From NCBI RefSeq assembly GCF_021233055.1, contig NZ_CP089540.1:62001-126000 (forward strand): a stretch of DNA of 64,000 nt. The letters run 5' to 3'. Each line of letters starts with the position of its first letter. The stretch's first letter is position 1. This document shows, one piece after another, positions 16,803-36,017 of the stretch. The position numbers and the translations under genes are program-made. The stretch is from Spirosoma oryzicola. Its GTDB lineage: Bacteria > Bacteroidota > Bacteroidia > Cytophagales > Spirosomataceae. The notes beneath the pieces are model-generated. The model had not been told where the DNA came from. It did no database searches and was given only the letters and a program-made list of their open reading frames with translations.

Positions 16803-19115
16803 TTATACTTGAGTCGGTGTCACTTTAACGACAATGGATTTGGAGATCGGCGTATGGCTTTTCTCAGCCATTTGATCGATAGGTACCAGGACGTTAGTTT
16901 CTGGAAAATAAGCTGCCGTGCAACCCCTCGGAATGTCGTAAGGCACTACTATAAATCGATGCGCGGTTCTGGTCTCTCCGTCATATCGACTGTGCAGATC
17001 AACCGCTTGTTTCTCCTGTAAGCCCAGACTGGCTATGTCGTCGGGATGCATGAACACTACCCGTCGTTCGTTATGAACGCCCCGGTAACGATCCGCGTTT
17101 TTGTAGACTGTCGTGTTAAACTGATCGTGGCTGCGAATGGTCATCAACAGCAATTCATCCGATTGCAGCTCATGGGGTGTTGGTGCGTTTACCGTAAAGT
17201 GCGCTTTACCATCGCTGGTATTTTTAAACACCCGGTCGCGGGGGTCATTCGGAAGGTAAAATCCGCCCGGCTGCCGCACCTTTTGGTTATAGTTGTCAAA
17301 ACCTTTAATGGTTTGCGCAATCAGATCCCGGATTCGGTCGTAATCCGCTACAAGGCTATCCCAGTCTACGGTCGATTTTTCGCCTAGTGTGGCTTTTGCC
17401 AGTTCGCAAATGATGGCGACCTCGCTTTTCAGATAAGGAGAAACCGGGTCCAATATCCCGTGCGACTGGGCTACTACGCCGGTGGTGCTTTCGCAGCTTA
17501 TAAATTGCGGCCCAGATGCTTGAATATCGTGGTCGGTACGGCCAAGGCAGGGCAGGATCAGCGCCGTTTCACCATGAATCAGGTGGCTACGGTTTAGTTT
17601 GGTCGATACGTGCACGGTTAGTCGGCACTTGCGCAGCCCTTCGGCCGTGAAATTGGTGTCCGACATGGCCATCGTGAAATTGCCGCCCAATCCAAAGAAA
17701 ACCTTGCCTTTCCCCTCGTGCATGGCCTTTACCGAGGCCACCGCATCATAACCATTCTCGCGAGGGGGCTTGAACTGAAACACTCGTTCCAGTGCTTCCA
17801 GCAGTTCGGGTTTGGTTTTTTCCCAGACGCCCATCGTCCGGTCGCCCTGTACATTGCTATGGCCGCGTATAGGGCTGGCGCCACCTCCTTTGATACCGAT
17901 ACTGCCTTTTAAGAGCAGTAGATTAATGACTTCACTAATGGTAGCTACCCCATTCTTATGCTGGGTCAAACCCATTGCCCAGCAAATAATCAGCTTTGGC
18001 GTGTACTTGAACAAATCGACAGCCTGCTGAATCTGTTCTACCGTCAGACCACACTGGGCGGCCAGTTCGTTCAGATCGAAATGGTCCAGGCTTTTGACGA
18101 AAGATTCGTAACCGGATGTATACTGTTCAATAAAATGCAGGTCGAGTACTTTGCCCGGCTCACCCGCCATAGCCGCTTTTTTCTCTTCCGCTATCAACAG
18201 CTTGCACATCGCTTTCAGCAGTGCCAAATCCGAATTTATGCGGACTTGCAGAAAGACATCAGCTAGTTTTTCTCCGCCAAACAGCATGTCGCGCGGACTT
18301 TGCGGGTATTTGAAGGCCAGCAGACCGGCTTCGTGCAGGGGATTAACGGCAATGATTTTACCACCCTTGCGCTTCATTTCTTCCATTGGGGTCAGCATGC
18401 GGGGAGCTGTTGTTCCTGGGTTCTGCCCCATAATCATGACCACATCAGCCGTCTCGTAATCCTCGTAGGTAACCGTCGCTTTGCCTAATCCTAGGGTATC
18501 AGTCAAGGCAACCGTGGTCGATTCGTGGCACATGTTCGAACAGTCGGGCAGGTTGTTGGTGCCGAACATTTTGACGAAGAGCTGATACACAAAAGCGGCT
18601 TCGTTGCTGGCACGTCCCGAGGTGTAAAAGATGGCTTCGTCGGGTGATTCGAGCGCGTTCAGTTGATCGGCAATGAGGTCAAAAGCTTCTGACCAGTCGA
18701 TGGGTACGTAATGAGTAGCACCGGGTCGCAGGACCAGCGGCTGAGTCAGACGACCTTGCTGACCTAACCACAAATCGCTTTTTTCGATCAACTCAGCGAC
18801 CGAGTAGCGCTGAAACAGGACGGGGGAAGCAGTGTGCTTGGTCATGACCTCATCAGCCACTGCTTTGGCACCGCTTTCGCAATATTCAGCAATGGGCGAG
18901 CGCTTGCCGTCTGGATCGGGCCAGGCGCAGGAAGGGCAGTCGAAACCGTCTTTCTGATTCAGGTTAGCCAGGGCCTTCCAACCCCGGCTAACATTCGTAC
19001 CGCGCAAGACGTGTTCAAACGAAGCAACAATGGCCGACATGCCAGCCGCTTCTGTTTCGGGTTTATCCAGTTCAAGGTCACCCGTAAATTCTTCGGGAGG
19101 AGTATTCTGATCCAT
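16803..19115 (-). CDS. FdhF/YdeP family molybdopterin oxidoreductase (short paralogue)
   Basis: A 770-residue molybdopterin-dependent oxidoreductase of the YdeP type. N-terminal cysteines C60 and C63 lie in DCPSCAWPDP; a four-cysteine 4Fe-4S motif of classic formate dehydrogenases is not obvious. The bis-MGD binding core includes FYTSGRASNEAAF, LPDCSNMCHES (possible Mo-ligand Cys), MIMGQNPGTT and GHSNVQGDRTMG; the C-terminal cofactor domain has IRSHDQFNTTVY. E. coli YdeP is associated with acid resistance, but the substrate of the family is unknown. A second, longer paralogue is encoded at 26931-29483. A catalase-like gene lies upstream in the same orientation. Confidence 0.85.
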   Translation of the reverse strand: MDQNTPPEEFTGDLELDKPETEAAGMSAIVASFEHVLRGTNVSRGWKALANLNQKDGFDCPSCAWPDPDGKRSPIAEYCESGAKAVADEVMTKHTASPVLFQRYSVAELIEKSDLWLGQQGRLTQPLVLRPGATHYVPIDWSEAFDLIADQLNALESPDEAIFYTSGRASNEAAFVYQLFVKMFGTNNLPDCSNMCHESTTVALTDTLGLGKATVTYEDYETADVVMIMGQNPGTTAPRMLTPMEEMKRKGGKIIAVNPLHEAGLLAFKYPQSPRDMLFGGEKLADVFLQVRINSDLALLKAMCKLLIAEEKKAAMAGEPGKVLDLHFIEQYTSGYESFVKSLDHFDLNELAAQCGLTVEQIQQAVDLFKYTPKLIICWAMGLTQHKNGVATISEVINLLLLKGSIGIKGGGASPIRGHSNVQGDRTMGVWEKTKPELLEALERVFQFKPPRENGYDAVASVKAMHEGKGKVFFGLGGNFTMAMSDTNFTAEGLRKCRLTVHVSTKLNRSHLIHGETALILPCLGRTDHDIQASGPQFISCESTTGVVAQSHGILDPVSPYLKSEVAIICELAKATLGEKSTVDWDSLVADYDRIRDLIAQTIKGFDNYNQKVRQPGGFYLPNDPRDRVFKNTSDGKAHFTVNAPTPHELQSDELLLMTIRSHDQFNTTVYKNADRYRGVHNERRVVFMHPDDIASLGLQEKQAVDLHSRYDGETRTAHRFIVVPYDIPRGCTAAYFPETNVLVPIDQMAEKSHTPISKSIVVKVTPTQV

Positions 19116-26930: not shown

Positions 26931-29483
26931 ATGGAAAATGCCCCCAATAACGAATCAAGACCCAGTAACCCAGACGAACAGAAGGCCGAAAACAAACCAC
27001 AAAGTGGTCAACGATCTGGTCAGGGTACGGAGATGACCAACAACCACTACGATCTGCACGGAAAACCGGACGCCGACAAACGAAATTTTGTGGCTCCGGA
27101 CAATGTGAATGCCAAGCACAAAAACCCTGTACTGGCCCAACCCCCCGAAGAATTTACAGGACTTAAACTCGGCAAACCCGCAACGGTTGCAGCTGGCGTT
27201 ACCGCTGTACTTAAATCGATGGAATTTTCGTGGGGCGAAGCGGGTGTTGGTCGGGGAACGCACGCCTTGCTGAAGCTCAACCAAAAAGACGGTTTCGATT
27301 GTTCGTCCTGCGCCTGGCCTGATCCTGACGATCATCGGTCAGTGGCGGAATTCTGTGAAAACGGGGCTAAAGCAACGGCGTCCGATGCGGATACCCGTCG
27401 TGTTGATCCTGAGTTCTTCGCTAAGCACAGCCTGGTTGACTTGTCGCATATGACCGACCGGGATCTCAATAATGCAGGCCGGTTGACTCATCCGATGGTA
27501 CTTCGGCCTGGTGCTACGCATTACACCAAGATTGAATGGAGAGAAGCGTTTCAGTTGTTGGCCGCCCATTTGAATGAATTAAAATCACCCGATGAAGCCG
27601 TTTTTTACACGTCGGGGAAAGTACCTAACGAACCGGCGTATCTGTATCAGCTTTTCGTGCGGGAGTTTGGTACCAACAATATGCCTGACTGCTCGAACAT
27701 GTGCCACGAAAGCAGCGGCTCGGCACTGAGCATAAGTTTGGGACTGGGAAAAGGTTCGGTAACGCTGAACGACATTTATGACGCTGAGGTGATCATCATC
27801 ATGGGCCAAAATCCTGGTACCAACCATCCGCGCATGCTGACGGCCCTTCAGATCGCCAAGCGGAAAGGGGCTAAGATTATTGCGGTAAACCCCCTGCACG
27901 AAGCTGGGTTGAGCCATTTTAAGAACCCGCAGGACTTCATGAATCCGATCAAAGCCGTCGGAACGTTGCTCGGCCACGGTACACCCATTGCAGATCTGCA
28001 TTTACAAGTCAGAGTTAACGGCGACATGGCCGTGCTTCGTGGAATCATGAAGCATCTGCTGCGGGCAGAAGAACAGAATCCTGGAACCGTGATCGATCAT
28101 GCGTTCATCAACGAGCACACGACCAACTATGAAGCGTTCCTAGAAACAATTCAAAATACTACCTGGGAAGACATCGAACTGATGAGTGGTCTGTCGCGCG
28201 AACAACTGCTCGAAGCCGCCAATATGATTGCCCCGAAGCAGAAAATCATTACCTGTTGGGCGATGGGACTCACGCAGCAAAAAAACGCCGTGATGAGTAT
28301 TCAGGAGATCGTTAACCTGCACTTGATGAAGGGAGCCATTGGTAAGCCAGGAGCCGGTACGTGTCCCGTTCGTGGGCATTCAAACGTGCAGGGCGACCGG
28401 ACTATGGGGATATGGGAGCGACCTCACAAAGAGTTCCTGGATGCATTGGCGAACGAGTACGGATTTGAGCCGCCCCGCGAACACGGCTATGATACGGTGG
28501 AAGCCATTAAGGCGATGCACGAGGGCAAAACAAACGTGTTTATGAGTCTAGGCGGAAACTTACTCTCCGCAGGGCCTGATACCGAGTTTATCGCCGAAGC
28601 CATTCGAAAGCAGAAACTTACTGTTTTTGTCAGTACGAAACTTAACCGGGGCCACCTGGTAACCGGTCAGACTTCACTAATCCTACCCTGCCTGACTCAC
28701 CTCGACATTGATAGGCAACGTTCCGGGCACCAATTCACATCCTGCGAAAACTCAATGGGGGTGGTCAGTCAGAATAAAGGCGTTCTGCAACCGCTGGAAG
28801 GAGAGATGCTGAGCGAAGTTGCCATTATTTCAGGTATTGCACTCAGTACGTTGGGCGATCGAACAAAAGTCGATTGGGTTGGGCACACCGAAAATTACGA
28901 CACCATTCGGGATTCGATTTCCCGCGTCATTCCCGGCTTTGATAAATTTAACGAGAAGATCCGGAAACCCGGCGGCTTTTACCTACCGAACGGTCCGCGT
29001 GAACGCAATTTCACGACCGAGAACGGAAAGGCCAATTTTACGGTGACCGACATGGTCATGCATCATATCGAGCCTGATCAACTGGTGCTGATGTCTATTC
29101 GCAGCCACGATCAATTCAACACAACGATTTACGACTACAACGACCGCTATCGGGGGGTGTATGGTGAACGGCGAGTCATTTTTATGAATTCACAGGACAT
29201 GCAGGATCGCGGTATCAAAGAGCGGCAATTGGTGACGATTACGAGTTATTACGAGGGACAGCAGCGTAAGCTTGAGCGATTTATTGCTATTCCCTACAAC
29301 ATCCCTAAGGGCAATACAGCAGCTTACTACCCGGAAATGAATCCGCTGGTTCCCATGGCGAGTGTAGCGTATGTCAGTAACCAGCCAACTTCTAAATATG
29401 TAGTAATTACCGTCGAAGCCATTGGTGAGTTTCTTCCAGAAGGTAGTACATCATCTGTTCCGGTGGCAGCGCTAGCCGAGTGA
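26931..29483 (+). CDS. FdhF/YdeP family molybdopterin oxidoreductase (long paralogue)
   Basis: An 850-residue paralogue of the protein at 16803-19115. It has the same cysteine pair (C124, C127 in DCSSCAWPDP), the LPDCSNMCHES-like segment (MPDCSNMCHESSG), IIMGQNPGTNHPRM, RGHSNVQGDRTMG and the C-terminal SIRSHDQFNTTIY cofactor-domain motif. About 70 extra N-terminal residues are hydrophilic, glutamine- and asparagine-rich and low in complexity, absent from the shorter paralogue; no Tat or Sec signal is visible. The first ATG is used, but a start at residue 35 (MTNNHYD) is possible. It has its own terminator. Substrate unknown. Confidence 0.85.
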   Translation: MENAPNNESRPSNPDEQKAENKPQSGQRSGQGTEMTNNHYDLHGKPDADKRNFVAPDNVNAKHKNPVLAQPPEEFTGLKLGKPATVAAGVTAVLKSMEFSWGEAGVGRGTHALLKLNQKDGFDCSSCAWPDPDDHRSVAEFCENGAKATASDADTRRVDPEFFAKHSLVDLSHMTDRDLNNAGRLTHPMVLRPGATHYTKIEWREAFQLLAAHLNELKSPDEAVFYTSGKVPNEPAYLYQLFVREFGTNNMPDCSNMCHESSGSALSISLGLGKGSVTLNDIYDAEVIIIMGQNPGTNHPRMLTALQIAKRKGAKIIAVNPLHEAGLSHFKNPQDFMNPIKAVGTLLGHGTPIADLHLQVRVNGDMAVLRGIMKHLLRAEEQNPGTVIDHAFINEHTTNYEAFLETIQNTTWEDIELMSGLSREQLLEAANMIAPKQKIITCWAMGLTQQKNAVMSIQEIVNLHLMKGAIGKPGAGTCPVRGHSNVQGDRTMGIWERPHKEFLDALANEYGFEPPREHGYDTVEAIKAMHEGKTNVFMSLGGNLLSAGPDTEFIAEAIRKQKLTVFVSTKLNRGHLVTGQTSLILPCLTHLDIDRQRSGHQFTSCENSMGVVSQNKGVLQPLEGEMLSEVAIISGIALSTLGDRTKVDWVGHTENYDTIRDSISRVIPGFDKFNEKIRKPGGFYLPNGPRERNFTTENGKANFTVTDMVMHHIEPDQLVLMSIRSHDQFNTTIYDYNDRYRGVYGERRVIFMNSQDMQDRGIKERQLVTITSYYEGQQRKLERFIAIPYNIPKGNTAAYYPEMNPLVPMASVAYVSNQPTSKYVVITVEAIGEFLPEGSTSSVPVAALAE

Positions 29484-29986: not shown

Positions 29987-30124
29987 ATGCCTAAGAATAC
30001 TTTATACGTACCTCCTGCAAAAAAGATCTATCAAACGCCTACGATTAAAAAACTGGGCAATGTTAAAACGCTGACGCTAAAAGTGGGATCAAACACCGAC
30101 GGTTTCGGAGGAACCTTCGTTTAA
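29987..30124 (+). CDS. Precursor-like peptide with lasso-type RiPP leader
   Basis: A 45-residue peptide, too short for most gene finders. Residues 15-24 read YQTPTIKKLG, matching the Y-x-x-P-x-(L/I)-x-x-x-G leader motif that binds the recognition element of lasso-peptide machinery. This is followed by NVKTLTLKVG and a short C-terminal part rich in Gly, Ser, Asn and Asp (GSNTDGFGGTFV). The ATG at 29987 is preferred over 29939, which adds a histidine-rich stretch. The gene ends before its own hairpin terminator, so it is a separate transcript. No transglutaminase-like protease, asparagine-synthetase-like cyclase or ABC transporter lies nearby. If G34 is core residue 1, D38 is at position 5, too close for a known lasso ring; K32 as residue 1 puts D38 at 7 and T30 at -2. 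Confidence 0.7.
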   Translation: MPKNTLYVPPAKKIYQTPTIKKLGNVKTLTLKVGSNTDGFGGTFV

Positions 30125-30242
30125 ATAAAACCAGCCGTCGTAACCAGGTAACGCGCATGGCAATCACAAAATCGTAGAATGCACCTGGGTATTTCTCGTG
30201 CAAAAGAACACATCAGCAATAAACCGGTTGAGAGTATTCGGG

Positions 30243-30278
30243 CCCAGAAACGTGTTATATAAACCTTTTCTGGGTTTT
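30243..30278 (+). terminator. Terminator of the small peptide gene
   Basis: An 8-bp stem CCCAGAAA (30243-30250) / TTTCTGGG (30267-30274) with a 16-base loop, followed by TTTT. It lies 119 bases after the peptide stop and 60 bases before the histidine kinase start, separating the two units. Confidence 0.55.
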
Positions 30279-34736: not shown

Positions 34737-36017
34737 TTAGGACGATAATTCTTTTTGTTTGGGTAAACCAACGGCAGTAGGCTTTCTAACAGCTAGTAAA
34801 GTTATCACAGCGGAGAGTAATAGGGAGCCTGCCATGAATAGGTACGACATTCCAAACCCGTTGGTCGCATCATTCAGATAACCCACAATGTAGGAACCAA
34901 TAAAAGAGCCTAAAGCACCAAAGCTGTTAATTAAGGCCATCGCTCCACCGGCCACATTCTTGGGTAAGAGGTCGGGGATGATGGCAAAAAATGGGCCGTA
35001 TGGCGCGTACATCGCTCCGCCTGCGACAACGAGCAAGGCAAAGGACAACCAGAAATTAGTCGTGCCGATGAGATACGACCCGTAAAAAGCAAAAGCGCCA
35101 ATCAACAGAAAGGGCCACACGAATGCTTTACGATTCAGCGTCTTATCTGAATAATAGGATGCACTCAGCATACCAATAATTGCTAATACGTAGGGAATCG
35201 CCGAAAGCCAGCCTGTTTTGACAATCGTCATATTGGGCGCGGCATTGATGATCGAAGGGAGCCACATGACAAAGCCATAGACACCGATGCTCCATAAGGC
35301 ATATTGTAAACTGAGCAGAAGCACAACGCGCGACTTAAAGGCTTCGGCGTAGTTTTTGACCGGCTTAATTCCTTGCTGCTCTTTTTGAAGCTGTTCTTCC
35401 AACGCCCGCTTTTCCTCGCTGGTTAGCCAGTCTGCGTCCTGGGGGGAGTCATCGACCAGCCGCCACCAGAAAAACGCCCAAACGATAGCCGGGAACCCTT
35501 CCAGAATAAACATCCATCGCCAGCCAACTGCCTGGATTAGATAACCTGATAAGACCGACATCCAGAGAATCGTGGCTGGATTTCCGAGAATTAGAAAGGT
35601 GTTGGCCTGCGAGCGCTCGGCTTTGGTAAACCATCGGCTAAGAAAAAGCAGCATCGACGGCATGACGGCGCTTTCGACAACACCAAGCGCAAAGCGTATA
35701 CCGATCAACAACGTCACATTGCTGATAATGCCCGTTGCCATGGCCAGGCCACCCCACAAAATCAATGACCAGAAGATAAGCTGTTTCGCACTTTTCTTTT
35801 CAGCGTAAATCGCTCCCGGAACCTGAAAGAAAAAATAACCAAGAAAAAAAAGCGAGCCCAGCAAGGACGACATGGCGTGGGTAATCTGTAAATCAGTCGC
35901 CATGCCGCTGGCGGCACCGAACCCAAAATTTGCCCGGTCCAGATAAGCCAGACTGTAAGTAACAAAGGCGACAGGGAGCAGTCGGTACCAGCGCGATTTA
36001 GCAATTGTGTTGTCCAT
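34737..36017 (-). CDS. MFS transporter, anion:cation symporter type
   Basis: A 426-residue protein with twelve predicted membrane helices. The N-terminal AYLDRANFGFGAA motif and the following loop are typical of the anion:cation symporter family (hexuronate, glucarate, phthalate type transporters). A central charged loop (TSEEKRALEEQLQKEQQG) separates the two halves. The substrate is probably a small organic anion such as a sugar acid, but this is only family knowledge. It is transcribed alone, with short repeats upstream at 36130-36230 that may be regulator sites. Confidence 0.9.
   Translation of the reverse strand: MDNTIAKSRWYRLLPVAFVTYSLAYLDRANFGFGAASGMATDLQITHAMSSLLGSLFFLGYFFFQVPGAIYAEKKSAKQLIFWSLILWGGLAMATGIISNVTLLIGIRFALGVVESAVMPSMLLFLSRWFTKAERSQANTFLILGNPATILWMSVLSGYLIQAVGWRWMFILEGFPAIVWAFFWWRLVDDSPQDADWLTSEEKRALEEQLQKEQQGIKPVKNYAEAFKSRVVLLLSLQYALWSIGVYGFVMWLPSIINAAPNMTIVKTGWLSAIPYVLAIIGMLSASYYSDKTLNRKAFVWPFLLIGAFAFYGSYLIGTTNFWLSFALLVVAGGAMYAPYGPFFAIIPDLLPKNVAGGAMALINSFGALGSFIGSYIVGYLNDATNGFGMSYLFMAGSLLLSAVITLLAVRKPTAVGLPKQKELSS

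Follow-up and report, generated by a model that had tools for sequence, protein, structure and literature searches.

A solitary lasso-type precursor gene in Spirosoma oryzicola and its probable processing in trans

We analyzed a 64-kb stretch of the Spirosoma oryzicola genome (the window; bases 62001 to 126000 of contig C3, in a genome of 7.33 Mb and 10 contigs) that contains a small open reading frame (ORF), A2. We conclude, with a probability of about 0.8, that A2 is a working second lasso-peptide precursor and that its product is processed in trans by the enzymes encoded on contig C1, where a paralogous precursor, A1, is also found. Processing in trans of the precursors scattered through this genus is well supported by inference.

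The A2 gene and its predicted product

A2 (29987 to 30124, plus strand) extends from an ATG at 29987 to a stop codon at 30122-30124 and encodes a 45-residue peptide, MPKNTLYVPPAKKIYQTPTIKKLGNVKTLTLKVGSNTDGFGGTFV; we class it as an orphan lasso-type precursor gene by its ORF, a leader model, and its paralogue and relatives. The original prediction had described this ORF with its lasso leader motif and had proposed a search with the lasso leader family. The NCBIfam model NF033521 (lasso_leader_L3) accepted the peptide narrowly, at 19.1 bits against a cutoff of 19, a pass by 0.1 bit, and no Pfam model matched it. Homologues of A2 were found in 26 of the 59 genomes searched, its own included, every one within its genus, and the best were the paralogue in the same genome (E 5.6e-15) and a protein of a relative (E 1.4e-13). 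P0001, a protein of another sequence record that is probably another strain, differs from A2 solely in a Thr37-to-Ser substitution; the reading frame, which the original prediction had wanted checked for breaks, is intact in that record.

The leader recognition motif YQTPTIKKLG (Y-17, P-14, I-12, G-8) lies at 30029 to 30058 on the plus strand. The available text of PMC10368454 gives YxxPxL leaders the register Tyr-17, Pro-14, and Leu-12, and applying this register to A2 makes K32 residue 1, Thr30 residue -2, and D38 residue 7, which predicts a seven-residue ring between Lys1 (30080-30082) and Asp7 (30098-30100), both on the plus strand. The leader would end in L-T-L (30071 to 30079, plus strand), with Thr at -2 and a predicted B2 cut after Leu31, and the predicted 14-residue core, KVGSNTDGFGGTFV (30080 to 30121, plus strand), is the same as that of the A1 protein. 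A2 shows the Y-17xxP-14x(L/I)-12 trait of lasso precursors, the Thr (rarely Ile or Val) at -2 (T30), and an Asp or Glu at core position 7 to 9 (D38, position 7 if K32 is residue 1). The available text of PMC12670498 names Gly, Cys, Ser, Ala, and also Asn as examples of residue 1, and Lys, the first core residue predicted for A2, is not among the types named there.

The original prediction held that the acceptor Asp is too near G34 for a standard ring of seven to nine residues but added that K32 as residue 1 would give a ring of seven residues; the published leader register supports the addition and overturns the objection. Among the 66 family members scoring at least 40 bits (35 orphans and 31 others), T-2, L-1, K1, G3, S4, and D7 are each found in 66/66, and in the leader, whose conservation the original prediction had asked about, P-14 is found in 66/66 and Y-17 in 65/66; 29 such members served to build the precursor profile, so that the 66/66 conservation arises partly by selection. 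Nine weaker matches keep the pattern in three cases and lose it in six. Two weak relatives with Gly at the position of Lys32 have Asp at position 8 (G008 C22:279143 and G017 C1:2886311). Leu31 as residue 1, giving an eight-residue ring, was considered and not favored; it would place Thr at -1 and Tyr at -16. In view of its lasso-type core and of a cyclase that scores best to lasso models, we also rejected the earlier suggestion that A2 is a new RiPP class that borrows the leader.

The BsfA system of Bradymonas sediminis, as far as the available text of PMC10368454 describes it, shares the Y-17, P-14, and L/I-12 register with A2 and resembles the C1 locus in having split B1 and B2, C, a kinase, and a nucleotidyltransferase gene. 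BsfA has Gly1-Asp8 and Ile-2, whereas A2 has Lys1-Asp7 and Thr-2, and, unlike in the BsfA system, A2 is on a different contig from its enzymes. In the size of its predicted ring the product can be likened to the xanthomonins, lasso peptides with a seven-residue macrolactam ring that appear among the references of PMC13352647. The leader and first core residues of the NF033528 model (lasso_cyano) align with A2 (16 bits) and A1 (24.9 bits), both below its cutoff of 33.

An enzyme locus on contig C1 and a second copy of the core

The original prediction had raised the possibility of a precursor served by machinery elsewhere and had proposed searching the complete genome for the same leader and for B1, B2, and C homologues. 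That search found both: the genome holds one lasso locus, on contig C1, with A1, B1, B2, kinase-like, nucleotidyltransferase, and cyclase genes, and its precursor has a core identical to that of A2. A1 (47 residues; 75% identity to A2, E 5.6e-15) lies directly upstream of the B1-B2-HprK-like-NTP_transf_5 genes, all in one direction, and the cyclase gene C lies 4 kb further on the opposite strand. Precursor and enzymes are clustered for A1 but are on different contigs for A2. Two further NF033521 matches in the genome (14.5 and 12.3 bits) were discarded; they overlap larger ORFs in other frames.

Domain models assigned the proteins of the C1 locus with differing firmness. B1 (PqqD/RRE) matched PF05402 at 68.5 bits (cutoff, 23.4), and its best NCBIfam model was the lasso PqqD NF033536, at 67.8 bits against a strict cutoff of 80. 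The B2 cysteine peptidase matched both PF13471 (66.2 bits versus 26) and the lasso B2 model NF033537 (79.3 versus 33), and the NTP_transf_5 protein scored 134.5 bits against a cutoff of 31.2; the label of the kinase-like protein is weak (36.7 bits versus a cutoff of 200). The cyclase C, of the Asn-synthase fold, reached the PF00733 cutoff, and its best NCBIfam model was the lasso cyclase NF033535, at 322 bits versus a strict 525, with the asparagine synthase model behind at 172 bits; its second residue is Gly, not Cys. The genome encodes one PF13471 B2 and one cyclase of this class, and a second Asn_synthase match (24.1 bits; cutoff, 21) covers only 75 of 354 positions. No ABC transporter was recognized among the seven scanned proteins of the C1 locus. 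An arginyl-tRNA-protein-transferase-like protein (PF04377; L038 9400-10056) is encoded beside the A1 locus, and genome G032 has a copy with 71% identity (L112 5663-6313) close to a solitary precursor.

The cores of A1 and A2 are identical in sequence although 9 of their 42 bases differ, all silently, and none of 200,000 random sets of nine changes kept the core peptide; the peptide is thus subject to selection. Over the 31 residues that begin with Tyr-17, the two proteins differ at 5 positions, every one of them in the leader. The divergence of the pair is not a recent event, since in the compared DNA block A1 is nearer to the precursor of another species (84% identity) than to A2 (70%).

We infer that A2 is expressed and that its peptide is bound in trans, cleaved, closed into a ring, and threaded. 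A2 would be translated alone, its leader would be bound by the RRE protein B1 from contig C1, and B2 would cut after Leu31. The lone cyclase C would then join the alpha-amine of Lys1 to the side chain of Asp7. The resulting peptide would have a ring and a tail (GFGGTFV) of seven residues each, and the kinase-like protein and the nucleotidyltransferase of the C1 locus may then decorate it. The product of A2 would be that of A1, and A2 would add an independently regulated copy.

Precursors and enzymes across the genus

The precursor profile gave 75 matches in 27 of 36 genomes of the genus, including the host genome. PF13471 gave 31 matches, 30 of them over the cutoff, also in 27 of the 36 genomes, and with the host cyclase as query, 27 genomes each gave a single match above 690 bits. 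These coincide exactly with the 27 in which precursors were found; among the other nine, two (G005 and G007) have weak cyclase matches below 90 bits and seven have none. This co-occurrence has a Fisher P value of 1.1e-8 with phylogeny ignored. The presence of B2 agrees with that of precursors in 34 of 36 genomes, the exceptions being G011, an 80% complete draft with precursor and cyclase and no B2, and G007, which has a different lasso-type locus and no such precursor. Since a precursor close to the enzymes is also present in most of the precursor-bearing genomes, co-occurrence alone is no proof that orphans are processed.

When we sorted the 66 precursors of at least 40 bits by their surroundings, 15 had B1, B2, and C within 10 kb, 11 had C but were missing B2 or B1, 5 had B1 and/or B2 alone, and 35, spread over 18 genomes, had no modeled lasso gene in the fetched flanks (mostly 7 to 8 kb a side). 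Of these 35, 30 had flanks of 7 kb or more on either side and 32 of 5 kb or more; the remaining three, close to contig or stretch ends, had less. With the nine weaker matches included, the same classes held 15, 13, 7, and 40 of 75. A precursor search confined to the vicinity of the enzymes would thus overlook roughly one in two (35/66) of the precursors that we recovered from this genus.

Genomes G006, G016, and G022 have an enzyme locus with B1, B2, HprK, NTP5, and C (the B1 of G006 is divergent, at 66 bits), and no precursor was found in the fetched 19.5 kb of these loci. The nearest precursor in G016 is 26 kb from B2, the only one in G022 is on another contig without enzymes, and the only one in G006 lies beside an extra B1. 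With no precursor found at the enzyme loci and the precursors elsewhere, action in trans seems to be required in these genomes. In six others (G008, G013, G015, G031, G032, and G034), the class-cyclase locus consists of A, B1, HprK, NTP5, and C without B2, which is encoded elsewhere in the genome, and the leader peptidase may therefore also act in trans. The genus is a natural test of lasso processing in trans, with enzyme loci beside which no precursor was found and loci that have no leader peptidase close by.

At the family level, 90 of 222 genomes gave matches, many of them weak, and these spread over 15 of 36 genera. Named records with precursor profile matches comprised 18 Spirosoma loci, one Fibrisoma limi, and one Runella metagenome-assembled genome (MAG).

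Among known systems, prochlorosins are a precedent: a single enzyme, ProcM, acts in trans on numerous dispersed precursors. They are lanthipeptides modified by one enzyme, whereas the system here is a multiprotein lasso system, its cores are far less diverse, and most of its precursors are paired with a secreted protein. The available text of PMC8960859 describes another RiPP maturation enzyme whose gene is apart from the precursor, an unclustered protease of lanthipeptides; in the present system the scattered genes are mostly those of the lasso precursors. Several precursors can share a lasso cluster and may then compete for its enzymes (PMC13381572, available text). Among the literature matches listed, with subscription papers mostly outside the search, none treated scattered lasso precursors in Spirosoma; the sole match listed for lasso peptide and Spirosoma, PMC12636315, concerns another peptide class. 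The novelty in print of scattered Spirosoma lasso precursors is not certain.

The survey also yielded several minor observations. At L102, L109, L111, L114, L135, and L139, lasso loci have no B2 between B1 and the kinase-like gene, B2 being encoded elsewhere in the genome. The G015 precursor beside a B2-less cluster (L109, near 7988) has lost the end of its core after Phe9-Gly10 and carries 45 unrelated residues instead. At L105 and L119 (G009 and G006), a precursor and an extra B1 stand by themselves as a satellite pair, apart from B2 and the cyclase. Some Spirosoma genomes have a second lasso-type locus (L093, L095, L070, and L098), in which the genes for B2, the cyclase, the kinase-like protein, and the nucleotidyltransferase are more distant relatives; short ORFs near L093 and L095 encode a WAKPTVQ (WxxP) leader, and their ends are rich in Gly.

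The surroundings of A2 and the secreted-protein partners

A2 lies between a molybdopterin oxidoreductase gene upstream and a PAS histidine kinase gene downstream. The observation that no lasso protease, cyclase, or RRE protein is encoded nearby proved correct: profile HMMs found no homologue of B1, B2, HprK, NTP_transf_5, or the cyclase in the 64-kb window, and a Pfam scan found no lasso enzyme or ABC transporter among the 19 window proteins around A2. The accompanying statement that there is no transporter stands for the lasso D type, no ABC transporter having been found among these proteins, but not for transporters at large, since an MFS permease is encoded at 34737-36017. The window contains two molybdopterin oxidoreductase genes of one kind, at 16803-19115 (minus strand) and 26931-29483 (plus strand), with 54% identity and about 8 kb apart.

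Downstream of A2, a likely intrinsic terminator hairpin followed by a T run lies at about 30240 to 30277 on the plus strand (-14.8 kcal/mol, z = -2.96, UUUU after), and 1 of 200 shuffles folds equally well. The hairpin is missing from the output of a consensus terminator scan, probably owing to the limit of 3 to 8 loop bases in that scan. A private terminator, as first described for A2, is plausible given the hairpin. We found no convincing promoter for A2 and no motif that beat shuffles, and in the upstream DNA compared between A2 and the other modules, the best match was no better than shuffles (19/100). For synteny we compared 14 relatives in which the upstream molybdopterin gene has an orthologue (at least 77%). 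One of them was partial and gave no locus, and none of the other 13 showed A2 or the downstream kinase within 1.5 kb. Because its site is not common to these 13 relatives, A2 may be a stray copy.

Clustering of the genes surrounding the orphans brought out a secreted protein encoded directly upstream of them. Fifty-three of the 66 precursors lie just downstream of a same-strand ORF whose end matches one C-terminal domain, at a spacing of 21 to 147 bp (one at 362 bp). This partner accompanies 14 of the 15 precursors in full clusters, 9 of the 11 with C but missing B2 or B1, 2 of the 5 with only B1 and/or B2, and 28 of the 35 orphans; A2 has none. Four of five scanned partners passed the type IX sorting model TIGR04183, the fifth scoring 22.2 against 23, and one partner has a PF11999 ice-binding-like passenger. 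In 47 partners, the C-terminal 185 residues match in 1,077 of 1,081 pairs and the remainder also matches in 160 of those 1,077; the partners are proteins with a variable passenger and a constant end.

As a control, the domain of the A1 neighbor was used as the query in 12 chosen whole genomes, six with and six without precursors, and gave 49 matches. A precursor followed 17 of the 18 matches of at least 150 bits (the exception, G017 C1:3818966, had none on inspection) and 4 of the 31 weaker ones, and the six genomes without precursors had 10 matches, none above 81 bits. In four genomes examined from two other genera (L199 to L202), the domain also lies just upstream of a precursor; L199 duplicates L194, and L200 duplicates L177 (Fibrisoma limi).

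A2 might instead be a relic or silent copy, rarely or never translated and kept by chance after a duplication in which it left its cluster and lost its partner, and the missing upstream partner (present for 53/66 precursors), the absence of a promoter motif better than shuffles, and a site not common to the 13 relatives are all consistent with this. We nevertheless consider it unlikely, since the core is intact with only silent changes relative to A1 in a copy that is not recent (70% DNA identity), the frame is intact with one substitution in another record, and the gene appears to have its own terminator hairpin. A leader put to another use, as a decoy or regulator that titrates B1 or as a linear secreted peptide, would fit with the distance of A2 from the enzymes and with the occurrence of core-less leader peptides, such as the leader-only peptides ending in HAGS in G004, G020, and G027. 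Those peptides have 33 residues and end right after ITLHAGS, with almost no core, among similar neighbor genes (G004 C1:6798142, G020 C25:60247, and G027 C37:99180; L122, L132, and L145). A decoy needs no core, yet K1, G3, S4, and D7 are kept in 35 of the 35 orphans of at least 40 bits, which makes such a use very improbable. That A2 is a chance ORF, short and placed between two larger genes, is hardly credible: it is refuted by the best homologues, which reach E values of 5.6e-15 (same genome) and 1.4e-13 (a relative), by the selection on its core, and by the conserved family.

With A2 read as a working precursor, its lack of a partner means that it may simply raise or re-time the supply of the A1 peptide. 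For the other modules, the gene order suggests that the lasso peptides act with the secreted proteins, and a role of lasso peptides at the cell surface is hinted at by how tightly their genes are paired with a single type of secreted-protein domain. More speculatively, and with considerable doubt, lasso peptides in Spirosoma and its neighbors could be dedicated partners of type IX-secreted proteins, with a precursor for each module and one enzyme set for all; the lasso peptide would then bind, or be attached to, the constant C-terminal domain, and A2, without a partner, would merely add to the supply of this peptide. In its boldest form, this proposal would make the side-chain amine of the invariant Lys1, which stays free once the ring has closed, an acceptor for the type IX sortase, and lasso peptides would tag or anchor surface proteins. 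We found no paper joining lasso peptides and type IX secretion in a search that left subscription papers mostly outside. A mirror-tree comparison of 51 pairs gave a correlation of secreted-domain distance with leader distance (r = 0.55) that exceeded that with core distance (r = 0.34), which shows joint inheritance and not recognition or binding. In G026 (L118), four secreted protein-precursor modules are neighbors, and two of their precursors are identical.
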